IMG/VR virus record: IMGVR_UViG_3300030110_002194
Span: 1 to 33,707 of that record
DNA from: a virus
Length of the DNA stretch: 33,707 nucleotides
Direction: 5' to 3' (one strand)
Both the position numbers and the translations under genes were made by a program. Below the pieces are notes generated by a model that worked only from the letters and a program-made list of their open reading frames with translations, was not told the DNA's origin and made no database searches. This document shows positions 5,499 through 8,283 of this stretch, piece by piece; positions within the stretch are counted from its first letter, which is position 1, and each line of letters starts with the position of its first letter.

Positions 5499-5978
5499 TT
5501 GTTAGTTGAATTTGATGATATTATAGAAAAAGTCTTAGAGCATGAAGGTGGTTATGTAGATGATCCTACTGATGCAGGTGGTGAAACAAAGTATGGAATA
5601 AGTAAAAGGGCATATCCAGATGAAGACATTAAAGAGCTCACTGTGGAAAGAGCTAAAGAACTCTATAAAAGAGACTATTGGGATAGGTTTCGTACTGGTA
5701 GCCTCCCTGATCGTCTTCGCCATATCTATGTTGATATGTGTATTAATATGGGTGGTGGAAGAGCTATTAAAATTTTGCAAGAAGCTTGTAACAGCAAGAA
5801 TGCAAACAAAATAGATGTAGATGGTGGTATTGGTCCAGCTACTATAAAAGCTGCAAGTAGTGTAGAACCATTTAGACTTAGAGCATATAGAGTTATGTTC
5901 TATGCAGAACTTGTAATGAAGAAGCCTGATCAAGAAAGATTTTGGGTAGGCTGGTTTAGAAGGAGTTGTGAAGTATGA
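5499..5978 (+). CDS. Endolysin: GH108 N-acetylmuramidase with C-terminal peptidoglycan-binding domain
   Basis: A 159-residue cytoplasmic lysozyme that cuts the peptidoglycan glycan chain at the end of infection. The hallmark HEGGYVDDPTDAGGETKYGI (residues 15-34) marks the glycoside hydrolase 108 family, and Glu16 is the expected catalytic acid. The second half (IDVDGGIGPATIKAA, then RLRAYRVMFYAELVMKKPDQ and FWVGWFRR) matches the PG_binding_3 module that normally follows it. The start is TTG (5499), chosen for the aaaggag ribosome site 9 bases upstream; it adds only MLVEF before the conserved core. There is no signal peptide, so it needs a holin. Its stop overlaps the start of a tiny membrane protein as ATGA. 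Confidence 0.92.
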   Translation: MLVEFDDIIEKVLEHEGGYVDDPTDAGGETKYGISKRAYPDEDIKELTVERAKELYKRDYWDRFRTGSLPDRLRHIYVDMCINMGGGRAIKILQEACNSKNANKIDVDGGIGPATIKAASSVEPFRLRAYRVMFYAELVMKKPDQERFWVGWFRRSCEV

Positions 5979-6984: not shown

Positions 6985-7806
6985 ATGTATGAAACATTTG
7001 ACTACCATAAAGTAGTCGATAAGCTAAGAAAGTTTTTTAAAGATGCAAAGAACTTTACTGAAGTACCAACACAAAGCAGATTAAGTATCTTAGCTGCTTG
7101 TGAAGATCCCAATACTATAGCACAATTTAATTTTGATGGAGTAGATTACCCTCTCCCTCAAACTGGACAAATGTGGCTTGAACATGAACTGCTTACTAAC
7201 CCTAATACTGAAGGGTTTTTTTGTGTTTCAACAAGCTACAGAAATGAGCCTAATCCTATAGATGGAAGACATAAAAAGATTTTCCCTATGTTTGAATTTG
7301 AGACTAAAGGCAATATGGCTGATATGAGAAATCTTGAACATCAGTTGTTAATGTATTTAGGTTTTAAAGAAGGTGTAGATGTTACATATGACTCTATGTC
7401 AAAAGAATATAGAACAGATATATTAGAAGCAGAGCATGAAGAACTAATGCATAAAGATAAGGGAGATGTAATATTCTTATCAAAGTTCCCTAAAAGGACT
7501 CATCCTTTCTGGAATATGAAACAGAATGATAGCAATAAAGACCTTTTTAATAAAATTGATGTTATCCTTCATGGGCAGGAAACAATAGGCTCTGCTGAGA
7601 GAAGTTGTGATAAAGAAGAAATGAGATGGAACTTTTTAAATCAAACAGATGGAAGATATGCAAATCTATTATTTAATAAGTTTGGCAAAGAAAGAGTAAT
7701 GAATGAGCTTGAAGAGTTTTTGTCTAATGACTTTTTTCCAAGATATGGTGGAGGAATAGGAATGACAAGAATAGCAAGAGCTATGAAATTAGAAGGCTTG
7801 ATATAA
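6985..7806 (+). CDS. Class II aminoacyl-tRNA-synthetase-like protein (AspRS/AsnRS/asparagine synthetase type)
   Basis: A 273-residue protein with the class II catalytic core but no anticodon-binding domain. Motif 1 is around TEVPTQ (Pro28). Motif 2 is YRNE (Arg86, Glu88), then GRHKKIFPMFEFE (94-106), matching 'fRxE...RH..EF'. The class IIb signature HGQETIGSAERS (196-207) corresponds to 'G.EI.SGaqR' of AspRS/AsnRS. Motif 3 is GGGIGMTR (255-262), with Arg262 as the ATP-binding arginine. Full AspRS/AsnRS are over 430 residues; archaeal-type asparagine synthetases derived from them lack the anticodon domain and are close to this size. It may therefore make asparagine, aminoacylate a tRNA or transfer an amino acid elsewhere. 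It lies between lysis-type genes and 370 bases upstream of a tRNA. Confidence 0.8.
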   Translation: MYETFDYHKVVDKLRKFFKDAKNFTEVPTQSRLSILAACEDPNTIAQFNFDGVDYPLPQTGQMWLEHELLTNPNTEGFFCVSTSYRNEPNPIDGRHKKIFPMFEFETKGNMADMRNLEHQLLMYLGFKEGVDVTYDSMSKEYRTDILEAEHEELMHKDKGDVIFLSKFPKRTHPFWNMKQNDSNKDLFNKIDVILHGQETIGSAERSCDKEEMRWNFLNQTDGRYANLLFNKFGKERVMNELEEFLSNDFFPRYGGGIGMTRIARAMKLEGLI

Positions 7807-7807
7807 A

Positions 7808-8089
7808 CTGCCTGCAGGAAGACCTAAGAAGAAAGAAGAGGAAAAGAAGCATACTGCTTTTGAGCTAGATATAATGAATGGTGGTGATGGACTCCCAGAT
7901 TGGATGCAATTTACTATCACTCTATTTATTTTTGGTTGTTTTTTTTGGATAATATATTTATTATTTCATCCTATATTACAGCTTGAAGATAACTTTAGAG
8001 ATCTACTTAATATTATAGTAGGCACATTCTTAGCTTCTTTTAGTAAGGTTGTAGATTTTTGGTTTAAACAGAATAAGAAACAAGATTGA
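7808..8089 (+). CDS. Two-helix membrane protein, holin candidate; start may be CTG
   Basis: The first in-frame ATG (7874) would give 71 residues, but the frame is open back to 7802. A CTG at 7808, 11 bases after the Shine-Dalgarno-like agaagg, gives a 93-residue protein beginning MPAGRPKKKEEEKKHTAFEL, a basic opening usual for phage proteins. Two hydrophobic helices follow: MQFTITLFIFGCFFWIIYLL and a second containing NIIVGTFLASFSKVVDFWF, then a basic tail KQNKKQD. The second helix with 'G.....s....dfwf' recalls small phage holins of the GTA/3TM type. If translation starts at 7874 only the basic tail is lost. The stop overlaps the next tiny frame. Confidence 0.6.
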   Translation: MPAGRPKKKEEEKKHTAFELDIMNGGDGLPDWMQFTITLFIFGCFFWIIYLLFHPILQLEDNFRDLLNIIVGTFLASFSKVVDFWFKQNKKQD

Positions 8090-8178
8090 AAGAAGTTTTA
8101 ATATTTAGTATACCCTGGATTATCTTTGCTTTAATAATATATATAATAAGCAAGTTAATAAGAAAACTTTTAAAATAG
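8086..8178 (+). CDS. Possible 30-residue membrane peptide
   Basis: A TTG at 8086 overlaps the preceding stop (TTGA) and opens a 30-residue frame, MKEVLIFSIPWIIFALIIYI followed by a basic tail ISKLIRKLLK. The profile is one membrane helix with a positive C-terminus, as for tiny lysis peptides. The ribosome site is weak, and the frame's TAG (8176-8178) overlaps the first two bases of the tRNA. It may be real and coupled to the upstream gene, or a chance hydrophobic frame in AT-rich DNA. Confidence 0.35.
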   Translation: MKEVLIFSIPWIIFALIIYIISKLIRKLLK

Positions 8179-8271
8179 TAAGGTGGTGGAATTGGCAGAC
8201 ACGCCACCCTGTTTAGGTGGTAAGCATTTTTCGGGGAAATGCTTGTGTAGGTTCGAGTCCTACCCTTACTG
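8177..8271 (+). tRNA. Class II tRNA, Leu-type body with GUU anticodon in the fold
   Basis: The 95-base cloverleaf is complete. The acceptor stem 8177-8183/8264-8270 has seven perfect pairs. The D arm (8186-8202) has the GTGGAATTGGCAGAC pattern of leucine tRNAs. The anticodon stem 8204-8208/8216-8220 (CCACC/GGTGG) has five perfect pairs with loop CTGTTTA. A long variable arm has an 8-bp stem, 8222-8229/8237-8244. The T arm 8247-8251/8259-8263 has loop TTCGAGT. This fold puts GTT at 34-36 (8211-8213), an Asn anticodon, with unusual T at 37. The discriminator is G (8271), followed by CAT, so CCA is not encoded. Leucine tRNAs normally carry A73. Identity (Leu, Ser, Asn or inactive) is therefore open, though the gene itself is clear. 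Confidence 0.88.
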
Positions 8272-8283
8272 CATGGAGAATAT

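Follow-up and report, generated by a model that had tools for sequence, protein, structure and literature searches.

Published accounts name carbamoyl phosphate as the precursor of pyrimidines across all domains of life (PMC13260591) and in every organism (PMC6245113). The CarAB–PyrB–PyrC route uses it to make dihydroorotate, which is also the product that we propose for the phage enzyme described here, although the enzymes of that route are unrelated to it. The proteins that resemble the phage enzyme are class IIb synthetases and their stand-alone paralogues. AsnRS is the nearest of these in fold and pocket, while archaeal asparagine synthetase A (AS-AR; PDB 3p8t, 3reu, 3rex and 3rl6) and the EF-P lysine ligase EpmA (GenX) share with the enzyme the architecture of a stand-alone class IIb core, AS-AR being of similar length as well. 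Among phages, the genes annotated as ‘tRNA ligase’ (T4-GC 194) in the cyanophages P-SSM2, P-SSM5 and P-SSM7 encode members of the same family, 55–56 % identical to our enzyme, and an 85–88 nt tRNA-Asn lies directly 3′ of each, the same kind of tRNA that is found downstream of our enzyme. The cyanophage records carry an annotation made by similarity only and mention no link to PyrE or to cellular pyr operons. A literature search whose coverage stopped short of bioRxiv preprints and most subscription journals returned nothing on the enzyme family, its tRNA or an asparagine-based route to pyrimidines.

The window analysed here is the whole 33,707-nucleotide stretch of the viral record IMGVR_UViG_3300030110_002194. 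The enzyme is encoded on the plus strand by an ORF at exactly 6985–7806, with an ATG start and a product of 273 aa, which comprises a catalytic core only. The Pfam family tRNA-synt_2 (D, K and N) is matched over residues 8–265 (E-value 1.1e-14, 54.6 bits, cut-off 25), and PHROG 29758, a family of unknown function, is matched over essentially the full length (residues 6–267, 1.6e-95, 320 bits). There are hundreds of viral relatives, so the ORF is not a chance one. The NCBIfam models for synthetases and asparagine synthetases, which require several hundred bits, give at most 30 bits; the AsnRS model NF003037 scores 23.1 bits against a cut-off of 414, and the archaeal asparagine synthetase A model NF005055 scores 29.7 bits against 389. 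An AlphaFold2 model of the protein (pLDDT 93.1, pTM 0.90) has as its best matches in the PDB the cores of AsnRS (Z 28), followed by AspRS (26.7), archaeal asparagine synthetase A (24), EpmA (24) and LysRS (23.8). The 273 residues leave no space for an anticodon-binding domain, in agreement with the preliminary description of this product as a stand-alone synthetase-like protein without that domain, and its reading as a class IIb paralogue of the Asx type is supported. In a tree constructed without the archaeal asparagine synthetase A family, the enzyme family forms a single clade on a long branch (SH-aLRT 100), within which phage and cellular branches are intermixed. The tree leaves the sister group of this clade open, and we therefore make no claim of descent from AsnRS. 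In the phylum of one DPANN relative, no archaeal asparagine synthetase A was found above its cut-off.

The active site was compared in an alignment of 55 family members with 15 AsnRS, 9 AspRS and 4 LysRS/EpmA sequences from genomes, one AspRS-like row (L377) being grouped with AspRS. R86, E88, E199 and R262 of the ATP site, together with R206, are invariant across the 55 family rows, and we take their roles in the ATP site and in substrate discrimination to be those known from structural work on AspRS and AsnRS. The ATP-site residues singled out in the preliminary description (R86, E88 and R262) are thus retained throughout. Motif 2 (residues 80–106, positions 7222–7302, plus strand) contains R86, E88, R95, H96 and the E104-x-E106 pair typical of AsnRS, and the motif 3 region (residues 253–266, 7741–7782, plus strand) contains R253 and R262. 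These two motifs are as previously described, but motif 1 is atypical because its otherwise invariant proline, present in all 28 AsnRS, AspRS, LysRS and EpmA rows, is glutamine in 55 of 55 family members (Q30, codon at 7072–7074, plus strand). The class IIb signature is also present, at residues 197–206 (GQETIGSAER, 7573–7602, plus strand), where it supplies E199 and the side-chain-binding R206, although its spacing reads G-x-E-x-x-G-x-x-x-R and not G.E..G..R as first given.

The substrate pocket is of the asparagine type. E104 is the AsnRS-like glutamate in all 55 members (AspRS has aspartate, Asp233), the position of AspRS Lys198 is leucine (L65), again in 55 of 55, and E66 matches AsnRS. 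R206, the counterpart of AspRS Arg489, is kept in every member and is replaced by glutamate in LysRS and EpmA; the position of E106 is tyrosine in EpmA and LysRS, and the pocket is thus not a lysine-type one. A comparison of fold and pocket, proposed at the outset as a check, accordingly places the enzyme with AsnRS on both counts. The family nevertheless differs from AsnRS in invariant residues of its own, namely Gln30, Arg253 (histidine in 14 of 15 AsnRS and 9 of 9 AspRS), Lys190 (codon at 7552–7554, plus strand; absent from AsnRS and AspRS), Asn177 and Pro101, and in a short insertion near residue 35. We consider it very probable that the enzyme is a class IIb adenylate-forming core with an Asn-type pocket, and the invariance of K190, R253, N177 and Q30 suggests a chemistry different from plain tRNA charging.

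The strongest functional clue, which the preliminary description did not foresee, is the pyrimidine context of relatives in cells. Scanning bacterial and archaeal genomes revealed 80 of these, in Bacteroidota, Gammaproteobacteria, Myxococcota, Chlamydiota, Midichloriaceae, Dependentiae, Patescibacteria and DPANN archaea; those in the aligned subset are 54–62 % identical to the window enzyme, as close to it as is the P-SSM7 protein (57 %). At 30 of the 80 loci the fetched flanks (up to 4 kb) include pyrD, pyrE or pyrF, in several phyla and in differing arrangements, with the identities of the neighbours verified in representatives by Pfam and NCBIfam. In ‘Candidatus Bandiella’ the gene row is enzyme–pyrF–short pyrE-like PRTase–pyrD–prs (ribose-phosphate diphosphokinase), and in Pasteurella atlantica it is enzyme–pyrF–short PRTase, with pyrD close by. 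Four gammaproteobacterial MAGs (G034, G035, G039 and G040) have the enzyme, pyrE and pyrF in one segment; these four have no AsnRS above cut-off and presumably use indirect Asn-tRNA synthesis.

The association with pyrimidine synthesis extends to gene content. Profile searches of 35 enzyme-bearing genomes, many of them MAGs of unreported completeness, gave hits above cut-off for PyrB in two, for CarB in two and for PyrC in two with TIGR00857 and none with TIGR00856, while PyrE was found in 25; CarB, PyrB and PyrC were all absent by these searches from 22 of the 25 genomes with both enzyme and PyrE. Ten near-threshold TIGR00857 hits (nine from Bacteroidota, one from Myxococcota) were examined as candidate PyrC proteins and are allantoinases or dihydropyrimidinases. 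PyrB and CarB were detected in all 14 control genomes, and 153 of 159 evenly drawn random Bacteroidia have PyrB; the only one of these 159 that carries the enzyme is among the six that do not. Within Bacteroidota, PyrB is present in 1 of 10 genomes with the enzyme, as against 153 of 158 (Fisher P = 8e-11, uncorrected for relatedness). Some bacteria, such as Haemophilus, have PyrD, PyrE and PyrF but neither PyrB nor PyrC and import precursors, so the gene losses do not by themselves prove a replacement. In the Patescibacteria and DPANN archaea that carry the enzyme, the remainder of the pathway may be missing. We are nonetheless fairly confident that the family, in cells, has a role in pyrimidine synthesis at a point before dihydroorotate, and for cells the simplest reading makes the enzyme the source of dihydroorotate when CarAB, PyrB and PyrC are missing.

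Asparagine contains all the ring atoms of dihydroorotate except C2, and from this chemistry we infer a candidate reaction. The AsnRS-like core would bind asparagine and ATP and form asparaginyl-AMP; addition of CO2 or bicarbonate to the alpha-amine would then give an N-carboxy intermediate, for example an N-carboxyanhydride, and attack of the side-chain amide nitrogen on the C2 carbonyl would close the six-membered ring of L-dihydroorotate with release of the alpha-carboxylate. The net reaction would be Asn + HCO3− + ATP → dihydroorotate + AMP + PPi, in place of CarAB, PyrB and PyrC, and the host's PyrD, PyrE and PyrF, or in part the phage's own, would carry the pathway on to UMP. That this is the exact reaction we put forward tentatively, the chances being slightly against it. 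We give even chances to the broader reading that the window gene encodes a phage version of a family of enzymes which begin pyrimidine synthesis from asparagine, without carbamoyl phosphate, and end at dihydroorotate. Given how closely the phage copies resemble the cellular ones, and given the pyrE and pyrF genes found in phages, the same function is expected in both, and we think this probable. For the phage in the window, the product would feed the PyrD–PyrE–PyrF enzymes of the host and so provide nucleotides for phage DNA.

Some phages carry the later pyrimidine genes themselves. The Prochlorococcus phage records that contain the enzyme (P-SSM2, P-SSM5 and P-SSM7) are exactly those with a clear PyrE. 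In four other phage sequences (L135, L140, L157 and L193) PyrE adjoins the enzyme, with the tRNA discussed below in the same segment, and the L193 protein passes the PyrE cut-off; in L234 PyrF follows the enzyme directly. For most phage copies the neighbourhood contains no pyr gene, and a search of the full 33.7 kb of the window found no PyrD, PyrE or PyrF. The gene had been placed in a lysis region, and there is indeed an endolysin gene upstream at 5499–5978 (PHROG 315), but the small downstream ORF proposed as a holin (7874–8089) has no family match. The lysis neighbourhood looks incidental, since P-SSM7 has its relative of the enzyme next to gp23 and gp3, and P-SSM2 has its own next to purH.

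Downstream of the enzyme gene is the only tRNA that ARAGORN finds in the window, a 96 nt type II tRNA at 8177–8272 (plus strand) with anticodon GUU, a 7-bp acceptor stem and G73 at 8271. It scores 48.5 bits with Rfam RF00005 in a focused search and 92.3 bits with model R1. The anticodon (8211–8213) is followed by U37 (8214), and a long variable arm with an 8-bp stem occupies 8222–8244, both on the plus strand. The anticodon and G73 are those of tRNA-Asn, but the short variable loop and A37 expected of such a tRNA are replaced by the long arm and U37, features on which the preliminary description did not remark. In a covariation analysis of 11 distinct rows, all 24 cloverleaf and variable-arm pairs are standard in every sequence, and two-sided changes occur at 19 of the 24, including all four of the variable-arm pairs tested; when the partners are shifted by 1–3 columns, pairing falls to 37–48 %. 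In cellular genomes, model R1 gave hits of 57–75 bits, and the four that were checked are ordinary tRNA-Leu.

A tRNA with anticodon GUU or GUC lies within 1.1 kb downstream of the enzyme in 83 of 171 distinct phage sequences (median distance 9 nt), a count made on loci collected by several queries in which the P-SSM7-like clade is over-weighted. The anticodon is GUU in 82 of these tRNAs and GUC in one, and almost all of them combine U37 with a long variable arm that covaries. The roughly one-half of the phage copies that have no tRNA nearby belong mostly to one set, comprising freshwater and Bacteroidota-like phages. U37 is present in 80 of the 83 partners and in none of the 120 other tRNAs of the fetched loci, which have A, G or C; within the same loci, base 37 is U in 62 of 62 type II tRNA-Asn and A in six ordinary tRNA-Asn. 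When, conversely, viral contigs were scanned with the DNA pattern of the type II tRNA alone, ten stretches were found. Two of them start at the very end of a contig, and one of these two is the margin of a contig in which the enzyme had been found before; in all the others the enzyme is upstream of the tRNA. Two phages (L214 and L218) have an ordinary short type I tRNA-Asn in place of the type II tRNA.

Several RNAs of phages with the enzyme have unusual forms. The partner with anticodon GUC (Asp), at L016:7332–7481, is 150 nt long and has a very large variable domain. At L083:6817 onwards the beginning of a tRNA (acceptor, D arm and anticodon arm, without a T arm) comes right after the enzyme stop codon, and a complementary acceptor strand followed by GCCA lies about 200 nt further on, the tRNA being either broken or greatly extended. 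Enzyme-carrying phages from fresh water have tRNA-like RNAs in which the acceptor, D and T arms are intact and base 73 is A, but which show no clear anticodon arm and have a middle part that varies widely in length, and several occur in arrays (L043:8443–8602, L047:5897–6055, L053:3306–3408, L057:5360–5451, L059:1013–1152, L061:1358–1439, and also L099, L102 and L113); the same search gave one hit in a 5.5 Mb shuffled control. The tRNA PSSM2_199 of P-SSM2 (AY939844.2) is annotated at 164094–164179 and actually lies at about 162082–162169, right after the ligase gene, so that the coordinates in the record look wrong. In two huge phages, L004 (LR756501.1, 735 kb) and L005 (LR756508.1, 484 kb), the enzyme (53 % and 48 % identical, respectively) is distant from their large tRNA arrays.

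The linkage to the tRNA is as real as that to pyrimidine genes, and the proposed reaction alone does not explain it. The enzyme probably has the type II tRNA(GUU) as its dedicated partner, whether acceptor, carrier or regulator, and the role of this tRNA is the least certain part of our account: the enzyme may charge the tRNA, use it as a carrier or be under its control. Both U37 and the atypical body suggest something other than an ordinary decoding tRNA. Charging of the phage tRNA had been suggested from the outset, and of that suggestion the link between enzyme and tRNA is borne out, whereas charging itself is either a rival to the pyrimidine reading or a part of the answer.

As a rival, it would make the enzyme a minimal phage AsnRS dedicated to the phage tRNA(GUU), the cellular copies doing something related. 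Such an AsnRS would identify the tRNA by its acceptor stem, G73 and body and not by the anticodon, and would make the phage's supply of Asn-tRNA independent of the host's synthetase and of the host's anticodon nucleases. The phage tRNA linkage, which the proposed reaction does not require, points towards aminoacylation, as do the result of the reverse scan, the type I tRNA-Asn that takes the same place in L214 and L218, and a fold and pocket that match AsnRS. However, a minimal AsnRS leaves unexplained the pyr operons and the missing CarB, PyrB and PyrC of the cellular carriers. It is also at odds with the cellular loci tested, which have no tRNA-Asn in their fetched flanks, and with the presence of an ordinary AsnRS above cut-off in 20 of 43 cellular genomes with the enzyme. 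Such a tRNA is missing from the vicinity of about half of the phage copies, U37 is poorly suited to decoding, to judge from its absence in other tRNAs, and the changes of the motif 1 proline to glutamine and of the motif 3 histidine to arginine are further departures from AsnRS. We regard this explanation as unlikely.

Both functions may instead be combined, if the pyrimidine reaction uses tRNA-borne asparagine or is controlled by a tRNA; cells would use their own tRNA-Asn and phages a dedicated non-translating one. There is a parallel in glutamyl-tRNA, which feeds tetrapyrrole synthesis. A combination accounts for the tRNA and the pyrimidine associations alike, and U37 together with the type II body suggests a tRNA that does not translate, while GUU and G73, which are known identity elements for AsnRS, are present in it. 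The sharing of one segment by PyrE, enzyme and tRNA in L135, L140, L157 and L193 also fits. Many phage copies nevertheless do without such a tRNA nearby, and we judge the combination quite improbable. In the widest proposition, the family would be a second start to pyrimidine synthesis that makes dihydroorotate from asparagine, bicarbonate and ATP and stands in for CarAB, PyrB and PyrC across varied bacteria and archaea, with a dedicated non-translating type II tRNA(GUU) that participates in the reaction or controls it in many phages; this is possible, though we think it doubtful.

Two explanations raised in the preliminary description fare worse. An archaeal AsnA-like asparagine synthetase (Asp + NH3 + ATP → Asn), which had been suggested as a possible supplier of asparagine to the host, has the same stand-alone architecture, a weak similarity in NCBIfam and a structural match of Z 24; but the score of about 30 bits falls far below the cut-off of 389, AsnRS structures fit better (Z 28), the pocket is of the Asn and not the Asp type, the family has a pyrimidine context instead, and the loss of PyrB and PyrC would go unexplained, all of which makes such a function very improbable. 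A protein- or tRNA-modifying paralogue of the EpmA or GluQ-RS kind, for which the stand-alone core and the U33-G34-U35 of the partner tRNA (the usual target of queuosine insertion) might speak, is hardly credible given the glutamate and tyrosine that EpmA and LysRS have in place of R206 and E106, and it offers no pyrimidine logic.

The pairing of the enzyme with a type II tRNA that has a GUU anticodon and U37 is unusual in itself, and this tRNA could serve metabolism and not translation, or could underlie a compact synthetase–tRNA pair. If dihydroorotate is indeed made from asparagine, the rule that carbamoyl phosphate is the universal precursor of pyrimidines would fall, and the manner in which many bacteria with PyrD, PyrE and PyrF but without PyrB and PyrC make UMP would be explained. 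Phages would then carry a one-gene shortcut that raises the supply of pyrimidines.
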